This document shows positions 19,448 through 57,604 of a stretch of DNA of 64,000 nucleotides, piece by piece; position 1 is the stretch's first letter; the number at the start of each line of letters is the position of its first letter. This DNA is from Bacteroidota bacterium (GTDB lineage Bacteria > Bacteroidota > Bacteroidia > Chitinophagales > LD1), in the NCBI GenBank assembly GCA_018267385.1, contig JAFDYN010000007.1:124001-188000 (forward strand). The letters are read 5' to 3'. The translations under genes and the position numbers were made by a program. Under the pieces are notes generated by a model. The model made no database searches. It was not told where the DNA came from and was given only the letters and a program-made list of their open reading frames with translations.

Positions 19448-20521
19448 ATGGCAGAGATATCCGCTAATAGTCCCTTATCACAGTTCCGGCCGCGCCGGGT
19501 GCTACTACCTGTAGCCATAGGTGTGGCGGTCACATTGTATCTGGTCTTTGGGCTATCCAGGCTGGATATGTCCGGCCTGGCTCAGATATCACTCTCGCAG
19601 CATCTGGCTATCGGGGTCATCATTTCTATCCTCACAGTAGCTGTACGTGATATAGCATATATCTACCGTATGTGGCTGCTTACCGATCGCCAGCTCTCGT
19701 GGTGGAGGTGCTTTGAGGTGATCATGCTTTGGGAGTTTGGCTCCTCGGTCACTCCCGCCTCTGTAGGGGGCGTCACAGCTATCTTCGTGCTCCGCAAAGA
19801 GAAACTCAGCTTTGGCAAAGGCGCCGCTATCGTCCTCCTCTGCTCCTATATGGACAACATTGCTTTTATACTTGTCTTTAGCACACTGTTTCTTATCTAT
19901 GGCACGTCTATGTTTGCGCTGCCCCCTGGCTGTGCCGAACTCGGCACGGCCCCTGTCATGACTGCGATACGCACTATGGCGGGCTATGCATGGATCGGGT
20001 TCCTGGTAGTAGGTATCACTGGCAGCCTGCTGGGTTTCGGCATTTTTGTCAAACCACAATGGGCGCGGTCATTTTGCAACAGGGTGGCACGTATCAAATG
20101 GCTGCATCGCTGGCGCGCCAAAATAGAGCTGCTGGGAGATGAGATCTGGTATACCTCCAGGGAGTTTAAGACCAGGGGTGTCTTCTTCTTGCTCAAGGTG
20201 CTCATCGCTACTGTCATCTCCTGGACTGCGCGCTATGCTCTGGCCAACGCTCTCATCTGGACCTTCACGGTGGCAGACCTCAATATGCTGGATGTTTTCG
20301 TACGGCAGTGTCTGCTGCGGGTCATCACCTTTATACCTACCACGCCGGGTGGCAGTGGTGTGTCTGAGCTTGGTTTTATCGCCCTGAACTGTGACTATCT
20401 GCCCGCCGGGCTCACGACAGCCGTGGCTATCATATGGAGGTTGCTCAATTTTTACCTTTATTTGGGCATCGGCGCTATCGTACTGCCGCGCTGGATAGCG
20501 CGGGTGAATAAGGCTGACTGA
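19448..20521 (+). CDS. Lysylphosphatidylglycerol synthase-type membrane protein (UPF0104/YbhN-like)
   Basis: 357 residues with about eight membrane segments. The motifs EFGSSVTPASVGGVTAIFVLRKEKLSFGKGAA and the C-terminal FIPTTPGGSGVSELGF match the LPG_synthase_TM / UPF0104 family. It lacks the C-terminal aminoacyltransferase domain of MprF, so it is not a lysyl-PG synthase; related proteins are thought to be lipid or glycolipid transport-type membrane proteins. A 14-bp tandem motif lies in the short gap to the next gene. Confidence 0.85.
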   Translation: MAEISANSPLSQFRPRRVLLPVAIGVAVTLYLVFGLSRLDMSGLAQISLSQHLAIGVIISILTVAVRDIAYIYRMWLLTDRQLSWWRCFEVIMLWEFGSSVTPASVGGVTAIFVLRKEKLSFGKGAAIVLLCSYMDNIAFILVFSTLFLIYGTSMFALPPGCAELGTAPVMTAIRTMAGYAWIGFLVVGITGSLLGFGIFVKPQWARSFCNRVARIKWLHRWRAKIELLGDEIWYTSREFKTRGVFFLLKVLIATVISWTARYALANALIWTFTVADLNMLDVFVRQCLLRVITFIPTTPGGSGVSELGFIALNCDYLPAGLTTAVAIIWRLLNFYLYLGIGAIVLPRWIARVNKAD

Positions 20522-20526
20522 TCGTA

Positions 20527-20560
20527 TTATCTCACTACACAATACTCACTACACAATACC
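20527..20560 (+). repeat. Tandem 14-bp motif directly upstream of the HisB-type gene
   Basis: Two perfect copies of ctcactacacaata (20531-20544 and 20545-20558), preceded by tattat and ending 8 nt before the ATG at 20567. A close relative of the same arrangement sits directly upstream of the ybaB-like gene at 33171-33200. Confidence 0.75.
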
Positions 20561-20566
20561 AAACAA

Positions 20567-21142
20567 ATGAAGAAAGTCCTTTTCATAGACCGTGATGGTA
20601 CCATGATCCTGGAGACAGACGACTTCAAGATCGAGACGATGGAGAAAGTTATTTTTTATCCGGAGGTGTTCTACTGGCTGGGCAGGATCGTGCGCGAGTT
20701 TGACTTTGAGCTGGTACTGGTCACCAATCAGGATGGCCTGGGCACAGATGATTTTCCGCATGAGCCATTCTATACTACGCATCGCTTTATCATGAATACC
20801 TTTGCCGGTGAGCGTATCTTTTTTGCAGAGGAGTGCATCGATCCCCACTATCCGCATGACAATAAAGATACCCGCAAGCCCGGTACTGGTATGCTAAAGA
20901 AATACATGAATAATCCAGAATATGACCTGGCTAATTCGTTTGTAATAGGGGACCGGATCACTGATGTGCAGCTGGCCAAGAACCTTGGTGCCCGCGCTTT
21001 CTGGCTGAATGATGGCCGCGCACTGGGCGGCACAGAGGTCAAGGATAGCCGCGAAACACTGGCCGCCTATGTGGCCGTAGAGAGCCGCAAGTGGGAGGAT
21101 ATCTACAACTATCTGATCGAAAACAGGACCGGCGTACTCTAG
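20567..21142 (+). CDS. Stand-alone histidinol-phosphatase domain of HisB type
   Basis: 191 residues of the HAD superfamily. Motif I is FIDRDGTMI (nucleophile D8, D10), motif II VTNQDGLGT, motif III RKPGTGM and motif IV VIGDRITDVQLAKNLG, all matching the N-terminal half of bifunctional HisB, which removes phosphate from L-histidinol phosphate. The protein stops where the imidazoleglycerol-phosphate dehydratase half would begin, after a linker-like WEDIYNYLIENRTGVL. The loop CIDPHYPHDNKDTRKP lacks most zinc-binding cysteines of the E. coli enzyme, as is common in Bacteroidota forms. No other his genes are nearby, so another phosphate ester is possible. Confidence 0.8.
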   Translation: MKKVLFIDRDGTMILETDDFKIETMEKVIFYPEVFYWLGRIVREFDFELVLVTNQDGLGTDDFPHEPFYTTHRFIMNTFAGERIFFAEECIDPHYPHDNKDTRKPGTGMLKKYMNNPEYDLANSFVIGDRITDVQLAKNLGARAFWLNDGRALGGTEVKDSRETLAAYVAVESRKWEDIYNYLIENRTGVL

Positions 21143-32878: not shown

Positions 32879-33163
32879 CTATCCTAGCCCCGGTATATTA
32901 GGCATTACTCCTTTCATCTCGCTTTGCATCAGGTTGTCAGCTTTGGCCAGCGCTTCGTTCAGCACATTGACCAGATGATCGCTCAGTTCATCATTGCTTG
33001 CAGATTGCTTGATCTGTATATCTGTCACCTTACGATTGCCATTGACAGTCACCTTGATGAAGCTATTCTCCTCTGACACGGTGATCGTATCGAGGCGGTT
33101 TTTCACTTCATCCATTTTTGATTTCAGCTCATTGAGCTGCTTTAGCTGATCCAGAAAGCCCAT
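32879..33163 (-). CDS. YbaB/EbfC-family nucleoid-associated protein
   Basis: 94 residues. The start MGFLDQLKQLNELKSKMDEVKNRLDTITV and the segment NGNRKVTDIQIKQSA fit the small DNA-binding YbaB/EbfC family, which binds DNA as dimers. The C-terminal helix LNEALAKADNLMQSEMKGVMP is also typical. It is usually found beside dnaX/recR, but not here. Its 5' flank carries the 14-bp style tandem motif also seen before the HisB-type gene. The His-rich membrane protein follows after one base. Confidence 0.88.
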   Translation of the reverse strand: MGFLDQLKQLNELKSKMDEVKNRLDTITVSEENSFIKVTVNGNRKVTDIQIKQSASNDELSDHLVNVLNEALAKADNLMQSEMKGVMPNIPGLG

Positions 33164-33170
33164 TGTTTTT

Positions 33171-33200
33171 AGTATTGAGTATTGCGTATTGAGATAATAA
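33171..33200 (-). repeat. Tandem 14-bp style motif directly upstream of the ybaB-like gene
   Basis: Read on the minus strand: ttattatctcaatacgcaat followed by actcaatact, that is ctcaatacgcaata plus a partial second copy, ending 7 nt before the start codon. It matches the motif at 20527-20560 at most positions, including the preceding tattat. Confidence 0.7.
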
Positions 33201-33237
33201 AAGTTGTATTACTGCCACCTGCCAGCCGCCACCAGTG

Positions 33238-51922: not shown

Positions 51923-54900
51923 ATGAAAAAACTTAGACTTCTCACCACAGCTGTACTCATTATTCTGGCTACGGGGCTATTCGCTCAGTCGTCAGTGCCG
52001 CTGGGTATCAGCTACCAGGCCGTGGTGCGCAATGCGCAGGGATCGGTCGTATCAAACACTGCGGTGTCTGTACGCTTTTCCATCCACGATGTCTCACCTA
52101 CCGGAAACATTATTTTTCAGGAAACCCACCAGGTCACTACTAATCAGTTTGGCCTTGTCAATGCTGTGATAGGCAGTGGTAATGCGAGTGGTATTTCCAA
52201 CCTGGCCGACGTGAGCTGGGGAGTAGGCGACAAATACCTGCAGGTAGAAGTAGACGTAGCTGGTGGTACCAACTATGTAGATATGGGTACCTCCCGTATG
52301 ATGAGCGTTCCTTACGCATTATTTGCAGCTAGCGGTATAGGTGCCACAGGCGCTACCGGTGCTACCGGTGCCGTGGGCGTTACCGGTGTTACTGGCCCTG
52401 TGGGTGCTACCGGTGCAACAGGCGCTGTGGGTGCTGCAGGTGCCGATGGCGCTACCGGTGCTACGGGTCCTGCCGGTGTAGCTGGCCCTACGGGCGCAGC
52501 TGGGGCTGATGGCGCTACCGGTGCCGCAGGCGCAGTAGGTGCTACAGGCGCCACTGGCGCAGATGGCGCTACAGGTGCAGCTGGTCCTACCGGCCCTACG
52601 GGCGCAGACGGTGCTACAGGTACAGCCGGATCAGATGGTCTGACAGGCCCTACCGGTGCAGATGGGGCGCAAGGCCCGACCGGCCCTACTGGTGCCAATG
52701 GAGCTAATGGTACTAATGGTATAAATGGTGCTACGGGTGCTACTGGTCCTGCCGGTGCAGATGGTATCAATGGCACAAACGGTGCTACGGGTGCCACAGG
52801 TGCTACCGGCGCTGCGGGAGCTAACGGTGCCACAGGCGCCACTGGTCCTGCCGGTGCAGACGGTATCAATGGCCTGAACGGTGTCACAGGTCCTACTGGT
52901 CCTGCAGGCTCTGTAGGCTGGCCTGGTGCTACTGGTCCTGATGGTGCTACCGGCCCTACTGGCCCGGCAGGTGCTGATGGCGCAGTAGGTCCCCAAGGCC
53001 CCGCTGGTGCTGACGGTGTAGACGGCGCAGTAGGTCCACAAGGCCCTCAAGGTCCGCAAGGTCCTGCAGGAGCTGATGGCGTAGACGGTGCTGTAGGTCC
53101 ACAAGGTCCTCAAGGCCCGGCTGGTGCTGACGGCGTAGATGGCGCAGTTGGTCCTCAGGGTCCTCAAGGCCCTGCAGGTGCTGACGGCGTAGACGGTGCT
53201 GTAGGTCCTCAGGGTCCTCAAGGTCCGGCAGGTGCTGACGGTATAGATGGCGTAGACGGTGCAGTCGGTCCTCAGGGTCCTCAAGGTCCGGCAGGTGCTG
53301 ACGGTATAGATGGTGTAGACGGTGCTGTAGGCCCGCAAGGTCCTCAAGGCCCGGCAGGTGCAGACGGCGTAGACGGTGCAGTTGGTCCTCAGGGTCCTCA
53401 GGGCCCACAAGGTCCTGCCGGTGCTGACGGTATAGATGGCGTAGACGGTGCAGTTGGCCCACAGGGTCCACAAGGCCCTGCAGGTGCTGACGGCGTAGAT
53501 GGCGCAGTAGGCCCGCAAGGTCCTCAAGGTCCGGCTGGTGCTGACGGTATAGACGGCGTAGACGGTGCAGTTGGTCCTCAGGGTCCGCAAGGCCCGGCAG
53601 GTGCTGATGGTGTAGACGGCGCAGTAGGTCCGCAAGGTCCTCAAGGCCCGGCAGGTGCTGATGGTGTAGATGGCGCAGTAGGTCCACAGGGTCCTCAGGG
53701 CCCACAAGGTCCGGCAGGTGCTGACGGTATAGATGGCGTAGACGGTGCAGTTGGCCCACAGGGTCCACAAGGCCCGGCAGGTGCTGACGGCGTAGATGGC
53801 GCAGTAGGCCCGCAAGGTCCTCAAGGTCCGGCTGGTGCTGACGGTATAGACGGCGTAGACGGTGCAGTAGGTCCACAAGGCCCGCAAGGTCCTCAAGGCC
53901 CGGCAGGTGCAGACGGCGTAGACGGTGCAGTTGGTCCACAAGGCCCGCAAGGTCCTCAAGGCCCGGCAGGTGCAGACGGCGTAGACGGCGCAGTAGGTCC
54001 ACAAGGCCCTCAAGGTCCTGCTGGTGCTGACGGCGTAGATGGCGCAGTAGGCCCTCAAGGTCCACAAGGTCCGGCCGGTGCTGACGGTATAGATGGCGTA
54101 GACGGTGCAGTAGGTCCACAAGGCCCTCAAGGTCCACAAGGTCCGGCAGGTGCTGACGGCGTAGATGGTGCAGTAGGTCCTCAGGGTCCTCAAGGTCCTG
54201 CGGGTGCTGACGGCGTAGACGGCGCAGTGGGTCCACAAGGTCCTCAAGGTCCTGCTGGTGCTGATGGTATAGACGGTGTAGACGGCGCAGTAGGTCCTCA
54301 GGGTCCTCAAGGTCCGGCTGGTGCAGACGGTACTAACGGAGCTACCGGTCCTACAGGCCCTACAGGCAGTGTCACAGGTACCGCTAATGCTATTGGCCGT
54401 TTCGATGGCAGCGGCAATCTGGGAAGCAGTGCAGTGATTTCTGACGACGGCACGGACGCGACAATCTCTGGTGGACTGACTGGTACTACTTCTGGTACTG
54501 TAGCAGCGCGCTTTACAGCTACCGGTGTAGCATCGGCTACTTATGGAGTGGATGGATACGGTCAAGGCTCCGGCAGCTTTGTGAATTATGGTGTCAGTGG
54601 TACAGCCAGCGGCGGATTCATCAACTATGGTACTTTTGGATATGCTAATGGTAGCGGAACTAACTACGGTGTGTATGGCAATGCAAGTGGCGGCGGTACT
54701 AATTATGCTGGTTACTTTAACGGTGACGTGACAGTGACAGGTACATTTACCAATCCATCAGATCAAAAGCTGAAGAGAGATGTACAGCCTATGTCAAATG
54801 CACTGGCTAGCCTCAGGATGCTCCGTGCGGTGCAGTACTACTATCGTACTGATCTGAGCAATATGAAACTCGCATCAGGTCTGCAGTATGGATTCATAGC

Positions 54901-55141
54901 ACAGGAGCTGGAGAGGATATATCCTACACTCGTGAGGGAGCAGGTCAATCCGGGAGGCATAGACCCTATCACCAAGAAGCAGTATCAGGCTATCACTTAC
55001 AAGTCTGTAAACTATACAGGCCTGATACCTGTAGTAGTGAGCGCTGTACAAGATCAGCAGAATCAGATAGACGCACAGCAAAAGCAGATACAAGACCTGC
55101 AAAAGCAGATCGAAGAACTCAAAGCGCTGCTTAAAAAATAA
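51923..55141 (+). CDS. Collagen-like protein with S74 intramolecular chaperone tail
   Basis: 1072 residues. Signal peptide [22 protein letters not shown]; an N-terminal domain (about 23-137; [27 protein letters not shown]) shared with the next gene; uninterrupted Gly-x-y triplets from about 138 to 816. The first half is Thr/Ala-rich (GAT, GPT), the second a run of about 23 near-identical 18-24 residue units ([18 protein letters not shown]). Glycine-rich head repeats (about 850-935) lead to a Peptidase_S74 domain (about 940-1030) with S946 in [10 protein letters not shown] and a C-terminal coiled coil ([12 protein letters not shown]). Such chaperones trimerise fibres and then cut themselves off. 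No T9SS tail. Confidence 0.9.
52977..54341 (+). repeat. Tandem coding repeats of collagen-like gene 1
   Basis: About 23 in-frame units of 54, 63 or 72 nt encoding AVGPQGP(QGP)AGADG(IDG)VDG. Units differ by whole triplet-of-codons steps and scattered third-position changes. The units make long false open frames on the opposite strand. Confidence 0.85.
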
Positions 55142-55171
55142 ACAAGCTGATATTCACAGATAAATGATCTT

Positions 55172-55206
55172 AAAGCCCCGTCTTTTTAGATGGGGCTTTT
55201 TTTGTC
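55172..55206 (+). terminator. Intrinsic terminator between the collagen-like genes
   Basis: Stem AAAGCCCC(GTC) at 55172-55182 and GGGGCTTT at 55192-55199 followed by TTTTTTT, 31 bp after the stop of the first gene. Confidence 0.85.
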
Positions 55207-55345
55207 ATATCACGCGGACACAGACAGCTTTACAAAAGTTTGTTGTATCAAGGCATTTACCAGGCGAAAGATTTTACCGAAAAAGCAGTAATGCCTTTTT
55301 CGCAATGTGTATCTTCACTGCACTTTTCAACTCAAATTTTCCTAC

Positions 55346-57604
55346 ATGAAAAAACTAAAACTCCTTACTACAGCTGTTTTATTGTCCACGGTGGTATGGG
55401 TATCTGCCCAGGCTCCTCAGGGCATCAGCTATCAGGCAGTCGTGCGCGATGCACAGGGTGCTATACTCCCCAATACTCAGGTGGCCGTCCGGTTTACGAT
55501 CCATGACGGTACCTCCGGCGGCAATATCGTTTTTCAGGAAGTACATCAGGCTTCCACAAATCAGTTTGGCCTTTTCAATGCTATAATAGGTGGCCTGAAT
55601 GGCACCGGCATAGGCAATCTTAGTGCCGTAAACTGGGGCACCGGAGCCAAATACCTGCAGGTAGAAGTAGATATCACAGGCGGCAGCAGCTATACAGACA
55701 TGGGCACCTCGCAGATGATGAGTGTACCATATGCACTGTTTTCAGGCAATGGCATAGGATCTACGGGTGCTACAGGAGCCACCGGTGCCGCAGGTCAGAC
55801 CGGTGCTACGGGTGCTACGGGCCCTACTGGTGCTGGTGCTACGGGCCCTGCAGGTGTGGCTGGTACTGATGGCGCTACCGGTGCCACAGGGGCTACTGGC
55901 CCTACAGGCGCGGTGGGTGCTACAGGATCAGCAGGCAATGATGGCGCTATGGGCGCTACAGGTGCCACCGGTCCAACCGGTATTGGTGCTACCGGCCCTG
56001 CCGGGGCAGACGGTACAGACGGTGCTACCGGCCCGACTGGTACCGCAGGCTCGGATGGTCTGACGGGCCCTACAGGTGCTGATGGTATAGATGGCGTAGA
56101 CGGTGCAGTAGGTCCACAAGGCCCACAGGGTCCTCAGGGTCCGCAAGGCCCGGCAGGTGCTGACGGCGTAGACGGTGCAGTAGGCCCACAAGGCCCGCAA
56201 GGCCCGCAAGGTGCTGACGGCGTAGACGGCGCAGTAGGTCCACAAGGTCCACAGGGTCCACAAGGCCCACAGGGCCCTCAAGGTCCGGCAGGTGCTGATG
56301 GTATAGATGGTGTAGACGGAGCAGTAGGCCCTCAAGGTCCTCAAGGCCCGGCAGGTGCTGATGGCGTAGATGGCGCAGTAGGTCCACAGGGCCCACAGGG
56401 TCCGCAAGGCCCGGCAGGTGCTGATGGTGCTCAGGGTCCTACCGGCCCTGCTGGTGGTGCTACGGGTCCTACTGGTCCGGCAGGTGCTGACGGCGTAGAT
56501 GGCGCAGTAGGTCCACAAGGCCCTCAAGGTCCACAAGGTCCTGCAGGTGCTGACGGTATAGATGGCGCAGTAGGTCCACAAGGCCCTCAAGGTCCGCAAG
56601 GTCCTGCAGGTGCTGACGGCATAGATGGCGCAGTAGGTCCACAGGGCCCACAGGGTCCGCAAGGTCCTGCAGGTGCTGATGGCGTAGATGGTGCAGTAGG
56701 TCCGCAAGGTCCTCAGGGCCCTCAAGGTCCTGCAGGTGCTGACGGTTTAGATGGCGCAGTAGGTCCTCAAGGCCCTGCAGGTGCTGATGGCTTAGATGGT
56801 GCAGCAGGTCCACAGGGCCCACAGGGTCCGCAAGGCCCGGCAGGTGCTGATGGTGCTCAGGGTCCTACGGGGTCTGACGGTCCTACCGGCCCTGCTGGTG
56901 GTGCTACGGGTCCTACTGGTCCGGCAGGTGCTGACGGCATAGATGGCGCAGTAGGTCCGCAAGGTCCACAAGGTCCTCAAGGTCCGGCAGGTGCTGACGG
57001 CATAGATGGCGCAGTAGGTCCACAAGGCCCTCAGGGTCCGCAAGGTCCTGCAGGTGCTGACGGTATAGACGGCGCCGTAGGCCCACAAGGTCCTCAAGGT
57101 CCTGCCGGTGCCAACGGTGCTGCAGGCCCGACTGGTCCTGCCGGCACTAATGGCACGACCGGTGTGACTGGTCCTACCGGCCCGGTGGGCGCACAAGGTC
57201 CTGCGGGCCCTACAGGTGCGGGAGTTGCCGGTCCTACTGGTCCTACCGGTGCGGCAGGTTCTGCAGGCGCACAAGGTCCTACTGGCCCTACAGGTGCGGC
57301 AGGTACTATTTCTGTGACCACGGTATCCGTTACGAATACAATACTCTCTACAGCCAGCCAATTTGTGCTCGTATCGGGCGCTATCAATGTGAAGCTGCCG
57401 GCCTCTCCGGTCACGGGTCAGATCCTGTATTTCTACGCTGATAATAACTCGTCTACTATAGATCCCAATGGCCAGACTGTACATCAGCAGGGCAATGATT
57501 ATCCGGGACTTTCGACCTTTGTAGATTTTGGCACCAGTTCTACGCATGCGCTCACGCTGATCTTCAATGGGTCAAAGTGGTATCCGCTTGCTGAGGGATT
57601 TTAG
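55346..57604 (+). CDS. Second collagen-like surface protein
   Basis: 752 residues from the ATG at 55346, which begins the signal peptide [22 protein letters not shown]; the frame extends 13 codons upstream without a signal-like start. The N-terminal domain (about 23-135) parallels that of the preceding gene ([16 protein letters not shown]). Gly-x-y triplets run from about 138 to 650, again with a GAT/GPT part and the [10 protein letters not shown]...GADGIDG block. The end is different: about 100 residues of strand-rich sequence ([21 protein letters not shown] ... [12 protein letters not shown]), resembling a capsid- or TNF-like trimer cap, with no S74 domain and no T9SS tail. Confidence 0.87.
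56080..57112 (+). repeat. Tandem coding repeats of collagen-like gene 2
   Basis: In-frame repeats of the same family as in the first gene, many with the variant [21 protein letters not shown], interrupted by two [12 protein letters not shown] spacers. The nucleotide similarity to 52977-54341 is high enough for recombination between the genes. Confidence 0.8.

Follow-up and report, generated by a model that had tools for sequence, protein, structure and literature searches.

Polar arrays of tandem heptads at gene starts and stops in an uncultured Bacteroidota bacterium and its relatives

The window analysed here is a stretch of 64,000 nucleotides (contig JAFDYN010000007.1 of assembly GCA_018267385.1, positions 124,001 to 188,000, forward strand) from an uncultured member of the Bacteroidota; among named records, the metagenome-assembled genomes SZAS-58, SZAS-59 and UBA1941 are nearest to it. 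It contains a gene for a HisB-type phosphatase and, on the opposite strand, a ybaB-like gene, each with a short repeat array just before its start codon. The features of the two sites, as read from the sequence, are:

20522..20530, + strand: element A, outer cap (TCGTATTAT), immediately after the upstream stop codon at 20519-20521
20531..20558, + strand: element A, four C-type heptads aimed at the hisB-type start
20559..20566, + strand: spacer of 8 nt (CCAAACAA) from the array to the start codon
20567..21142, + strand: HisB-type phosphatase gene (191 aa) with element A at its start edge
33194..33203, - strand: element B, region of the outer cap (CTTTTATTAT)
33173..33193, - strand: element B, three C-type heptads aimed at the ybaB-like start and kept in relatives
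33164..33172, - strand: spacer of 9 nt (CTAAAAACA) before the start codon
32879..33163, - strand: ybaB-like gene (94 aa) with element B at its start edge

At site A, two perfect copies of CTCACTACACAATA (20531-20544 and 20545-20558) are immediately preceded by TATTAT (20525-20530) and followed, after 8 bases, by the ATG at 20567, and the element occupies nearly the entire gap between the upstream stop codon, which ends at 20521, and the start. Site B, on the minus strand, consists of one copy of CTCAATACGCAATA (33193-33180) and a partial copy, CTCAATA (33179-33173), the whole array being CTCAATACGCAATACTCAATA (33193-33173), with TATTAT (33199-33194) before it and 9 bases between it and the ATG at 33163. 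An earlier note on this DNA had described both sites in this way, and the layout is confirmed; its 14-bp repeat unit has to be halved, as both sites read cleanly as 7-bp heptads (CTCACTA, CACAATA, CTCACTA and CACAATA at site A; CTCAATA, CGCAATA and CTCAATA at site B), and Tandem Repeats Finder returned a period of 7 for site B. Within the window, the 14-mer with three mismatches allowed was not enriched (17 matches versus 15.3 expected), and no known structured RNA family of Rfam 15 matched above its gathering score. The window also carries two adjacent long genes (51923-57604, + strand; 1072 and 765 aa) with tandem repeats (GGTCCACAAGGTCCT..., with periods of 9, 27, 54 and 63) that read as collagen-like Gly-X-Y.

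Genome-wide counts, with the reversed pattern in the same genome as the control, identify the two sites as members of one family. The exact 14-bp motif, for which the earlier note had proposed such a count, has six matches versus none for the control, and the generalised double heptad CTNAMTACTNAMTAC has 100 exact matches versus one. Its members are polar elements about 39 bp long, each made of an outer cap and typically four tandem heptads of either the CTAAATA/CTTAATA/CTAACTA type (A-type) or the CTCAATA type (C-type, with the variants CGCAATA and CCCACTA); the general form of the heptad is CTNAMTA, and the consensus by position is CTWAATA CTTAATA CTAACTA CTWAATA C. Four heptads is the most frequent copy number in this genome (38/65 arrays), and some arrays are long, with at least 13 copies. 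The cap, often TTGYATT, is found exactly as TTGYATT plus 2-3 nt plus T in 34 of 109 elements and within one mismatch in 70 of 109, compared with 19 of 107 for a control window taken upstream. Coding sequence holds only three of the 65 arrays, each a two-copy array that resembles a chance match; the two outcomes that the earlier note had named as refuting its observation therefore did not occur. The sampled regions show no genome-wide lag-7 periodicity of intergenic DNA, so the arrays are discrete sites. The regions analysed were the stretches around arrays and a set of sample regions, in which genes were called with a codon model and starts are predictions.

Multiple unrelated heptad classes coexist. 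A further class, CTTGNYT, was seen in this genome at five loci (L117:19435, L103, L106, L112 and L129), once with the same TTGCATTGT cap. A GC-rich palindrome of the CCTGCCTNCCGGCAGGCAGG type is inserted within or beside arrays at the trigger-factor start edge of genome G005 (L254) and at L116:1889 (G000:C27), which gives the impression that a second small repeat targets the arrays. Two contigs terminate inside CTAAATA arrays, G000:C12 at its right end with 3 copies and G000:C21 at its left end with about 15 (L095, L102); these may be neighbours that one long array has split in the assembly.

The arrays are placed and oriented by rule with respect to the coding sequences. The end reading ...AATAC is the nearer to a gene edge in 48 of 53 arrays of this genome (p=3.5e-10) and in 47 of 51 arrays of the sister species G005 (p=1.2e-10), so that the heptads lie at the edge of the coding sequence, pointing into the gene, and the cap lies toward the middle of the gap. 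About 60% of the arrays (32/53 in this genome) are at start edges in sense orientation, at spacings of mostly 4-12 bp, and about 40% (21/53 here and 20/51 in the sister species) are at stop edges in reversed orientation, at spacings that run, apart from a few exceptions, from -11 to +16 bp, which often puts the stop codon inside the first heptad. In all, 41 of 53 arrays are within 12 bp of an edge, which none of 5000 uniform placements matched. Array-bearing gaps are rare and most carry a single arm, but about 18 outward pairs ('<>') in one gap occur among 84 array sites, and inward pairs ('><') never do. Gaps between co-directional genes account for 72 of the 79 that bear arrays, compared with 154 of 225 in the sampled regions (p=4e-5). 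The adjacent genes, whose translations were read by eye, are ordinary ones (among them EF-G, EF-Ts, ATP synthase, SdhA, trigger factor, PurA and PurL); no shared function or regulon is evident among the genes flanked by arrays, and an association with surface or contingency genes, the signature of phase variation, was absent, the proximal genes having mostly core functions. The suggestion in the earlier note of a repeat family that inserts into 5' untranslated regions is thus borne out as to the family, with dozens of sites in this genome, and only in part as to the location, since some two fifths of the arrays aim at stop codons in reverse.

Between species the sites are retained, whereas the number of heptad copies and their sequence change as a block. 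The start edge of ybaB bears an array in all five readable species, C-type in G000, G004, G005 and G002 and A-type in G006. In two relatives the start edge of hisB carries C-type arrays, with two and four heptads; in a third it carries an A-type array, in a fourth an array of another heptad (ACTTAAA, ACTTATA, ACCTACA), and in a fifth no array. A heptad array likewise lies near the start of a second gene for a HisB-type phosphatase (L083, G000:C6), and the heptad found there in the sister species is not the same. Of 37 edges of this genome located in G005, 29 bear an A- or C-type array there, four bear another heptad class (CTACTAT/CCAGCAT x9, CAACTGA/CATCTGA, ATTCTCT and AACCTAC, with shuffle p of 0 to 0.008) and four bear none; a heptad array of any class is thus kept at 33 of 37, which is an upper estimate, since about 24 of the 37 edges were located through the G005 arrays themselves. 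Flips between A-type and C-type as a block were seen at 6 or more edges. Copy number at orthologous edges also varies, being 4 versus 8 (L093/L196) and 4 versus 6 (L110/L213), and a single heptad remains at L255, compared with about five at the matching edge of this genome (L091). With respect to the terminal inverted repeats and target-site duplications of MITEs and IS remnants, most copies are single-armed and some orthologous edges are down to one heptad, which suggests contraction.

The family extends beyond its own genus: triple heptads of this type occur sporadically in 32 of 395 Bacteroidota genomes, of which G046 and G365 are rich in arrays. At loci in about 20 of these genomes, 44 of 53 arrays aim at the nearer gene edge, a count that was made with simple (crude) open reading frames and includes one array of the present genome (L265); of the nine arrays that do not, several appear to reflect starts called in the wrong place. 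Copy number in the distant genomes ranges from 3 to 13 and lacks the preference for four units. In genome G034, of another family in the same order, TAACTCA arrays with up to 14 or more copies lie at gene starts (L221-L250), with CACTTTT and GGTTAGT heptads close by. Arrays of the same heptad as in the present genome, in G016 and G021 (L050, L059, L049), seem to be inside coding sequence and read LNTQYSQLNT, followed by a KGIYF motif that, by eye, resembles a T9SS sorting domain. The reversed pattern that serves as the control has up to 60 matches in some genomes of genera g38 (f21) and g83 (f34), probably representing another heptad family, so that it is no clean null there.

No earlier description of a CTCAATA/CTAAATA family was found in a literature search of incomplete coverage. 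The STRR of heterocystous cyanobacteria are, like the present arrays, intergenic tandem heptamers, differing in sequence and taxon. The omega operators, or parS sites, of pSM19035 are likewise runs of adjoining 7-bp units, both direct and inverted, but are sites of plasmid partition and repression, unlike the dispersed gene-edge elements described here. A close parallel is with the GGGAATC and GGGGA(C/T)T heptamers of Xanthomonas and Nostoc, which have a four-unit mode and have been linked to G-quadruplex formation (Rehm et al. 2015, PMC4692102). Those heptamers are intergenic and near a gene, and their G strand is antisense where they precede a start and sense where they follow a stop; they prefer co-directional genes, form inverted pairs in one orientation only, are associated with no functional class of genes, and have 83% of their positions in common between two species although their length is variable (PMC4692102). 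The Bacteroidota arrays resemble them in the heptamer unit and, within this genome, the four-unit mode; in polarity, the G strand being antisense at starts and sense at stops in each of the three sets of arrays (48/53, 47/51 and 44/53); in the preference for co-directional gaps and avoidance of divergent ones; in the single orientation of inverted pairs and the lack of a functional class among the genes; and in the retention of positions (33/37 in the sister species, as an upper estimate) with variable length. They differ in their sequence, the outer cap, the swaps of heptad type at conserved edges and the stop codons on the G strand. None of the 109 elements has four G2 or G3 tracts, which excludes a G-quadruplex as the basis of arrays with these sequences. 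Every testable feature of the Rehm heptamers is thus common to the Bacteroidota arrays except the quadruplex, and quadruplexes are not needed for the architecture.

Direct repeats of another heptamer, TAACTGA, occur in marine Beggiatoaceae, in cyanobacteria and in a few Bacteroidetes, with a sporadic phylogenetic spread (MacGregor 2015, PMC4679880). In the main genome of that study they occur in 2-6 copies; most face forward and lie immediately before start codons, the majority of which have no Shine-Dalgarno sequence, and in Flexibacter litoralis one set lies directly after a stop codon, reversed (PMC4679880). The start-edge arrays described here are similarly forward (32/53) and most are within 12 bp; unlike the TAACTGA repeats, stop edges are a major class, and near-variant heptads, rare in the Beggiatoaceae genome, are frequent. 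Membership in the TAACTGA family was rejected, since the unit is absent as a doublet from this genome (0 matches); among the 40 genomes searched, one had a match.

The two strands of an array have distinct properties as RNA. The strand that reads into the gene (the C-strand) is 2.2% G, contains a start triplet in 7 of 109 arrays compared with 75% of random intergenic 28-mers, and has an RNA MFE of -1.5 versus -6.2 kcal/mol. Its complement (the G-strand) contains a stop codon in all 109 arrays and stops in all three frames in 68 of 109, compared with 2.75% of random sequences; seven not being a multiple of three, stops often fall in all three frames within 28 bp. The leading interpretation, to which a probability of only about 0.38 is assigned, is that the arrays serve as punctuation of the mRNA, as a leader free of G and of start triplets before genes and as a trailer with stops in all frames after them. 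Heptad slippage and occasional copying from other sites would create and refresh the arrays, and their retention at gene edges would come from a role in the mRNA. Before a start codon, the nearly G-free strand with little structure and few start codons would form an open leader over the ribosome-landing zone; after a stop codon, the complement as the sense strand would form an end mark independent of frame. In favour of this interpretation are the enrichment (100 versus 1), the four-copy peak, the polarity in this genome, the sister species and unrelated Bacteroidota, the spacing at both kinds of edge, the preference for co-directional gaps, the strand properties just given and the conservation of edges through block swaps of heptad type. 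These leader and trailer properties follow largely from base composition, and selection need not be involved. The TAA present on the C-strand of A-type arrays as well counts against the punctuation interpretation, as does the absence of an evident function or regulon common to the genes, and the idea of an end mark does not extend to Xanthomonas, in which the G strand of GGGAATC has no stop codons with the same polarity.

A close rival, possible but on balance doubtful, is that the arrays are functionless tandem repeats driven by slippage and tolerated in gaps without promoters, their polarity being the result of purging of harmful orientations. Differences in copy number at orthologous edges (4 versus 8, 4 versus 6, one versus about five), the coexistence of unrelated heptad classes, arrays of 13 copies or more and the ordinary housekeeping functions of the flanking genes are all consistent with it, and the enrichment in co-directional gaps may reflect the absence of promoters. 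Such a filter does not readily explain placement flush with the edge (41/53 within 12 bp) over placement in the middle of the gap, the fixed polarity at stop edges or the four-copy mode. In our judgement, flush placement and stop-edge polarity favour function, while heptad swaps and changes in copy number favour slippage as the source of the arrays. Arrays pointing inward from both ends of a gene are naturally a rule at the level of DNA, as they would be if a heptad-binding protein marked gene edges or blocked the exit of polymerase in one direction. Direct and inverted unspaced 7-bp arrays are bound by omega-type ribbon-helix-helix proteins of plasmids. Wholesale swaps at conserved edges (CTCAATA, CTAAATA, CAACTGA, CTACTAT, TATTCTC) are hard to square with a single sequence-specific binder, making a boundary element of this kind distinctly unlikely; the protein-binding site proposed in the earlier note may still apply, though the swaps argue against one such binder.

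An element acting solely as a translation leader, the idea of MacGregor for TAACTGA and also of the earlier note, could suit the start-edge arrays, about 60% of the total and mostly 4-12 bp from the start; it is nevertheless very unlikely to account for the family, about 40% of which aims at stops in antisense, these stop-edge arrays being, on present indications, as conserved and as polar as the start-edge ones. The gaps with two arms, common although array-bearing gaps are rare, and the near-perfect palindromes among pairs in distant genomes (L289, L294) might be taken as hairpins, with the two '<>' arms pairing in the mRNA and thereby linking adjacent genes or keeping them apart. A single arm is all that most gaps have, however, and arms in the same gap are no more alike than arms in different gaps (permutation p=0.59 and 0.96), so a hairpin with co-evolving arms is disfavoured and the hairpin explanation in general is highly improbable. 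Least probable of all is a promoter module in which the cap is a Bacteroidota -7 box that fires into the gene: TTTG is often present in the cap and one site has TATATTTG (L093), but TAnnTTTG precedes only 5 of 109 arrays, no -33 or other sequence is conserved upstream of the cap, and the stop-edge copies would yield antisense RNA. The cap is thus disfavoured as a promoter, and punctuation of the mRNA is still the leading interpretation of the arrays.

The architecture of these elements was already known from Xanthomonas and Nostoc, and the Bacteroidota CTCAATA/CTAAATA arrays are a version of it without a quadruplex. Arrays that show the same pattern without the capacity for quadruplexes weaken quadruplex folding as the explanation of the pattern in Xanthomonas and Nostoc; the cause would then lie elsewhere, whether in the period of 7 nt, at the gene edge or in the way that arrays arise. 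A broader and speculative proposal, toward which we remain sceptical, is that bacteria in general use polar heptad arrays at gene edges as punctuation, either through convergence or as a very old trait, with selection acting on the period of 7, the polarity and the place and leaving the sequence free. If this were true, the GGGAATC repeats of Xanthomonas, the TAACTGA repeats of Beggiatoa and the heptads of Bacteroidota would be one system, and the quadruplex account would be a special case. The heptad families of Bacteroidota swap type at fixed edges, making sequence separable from period, and thus the question of why the units are heptamers and why they lie at gene edges becomes testable.
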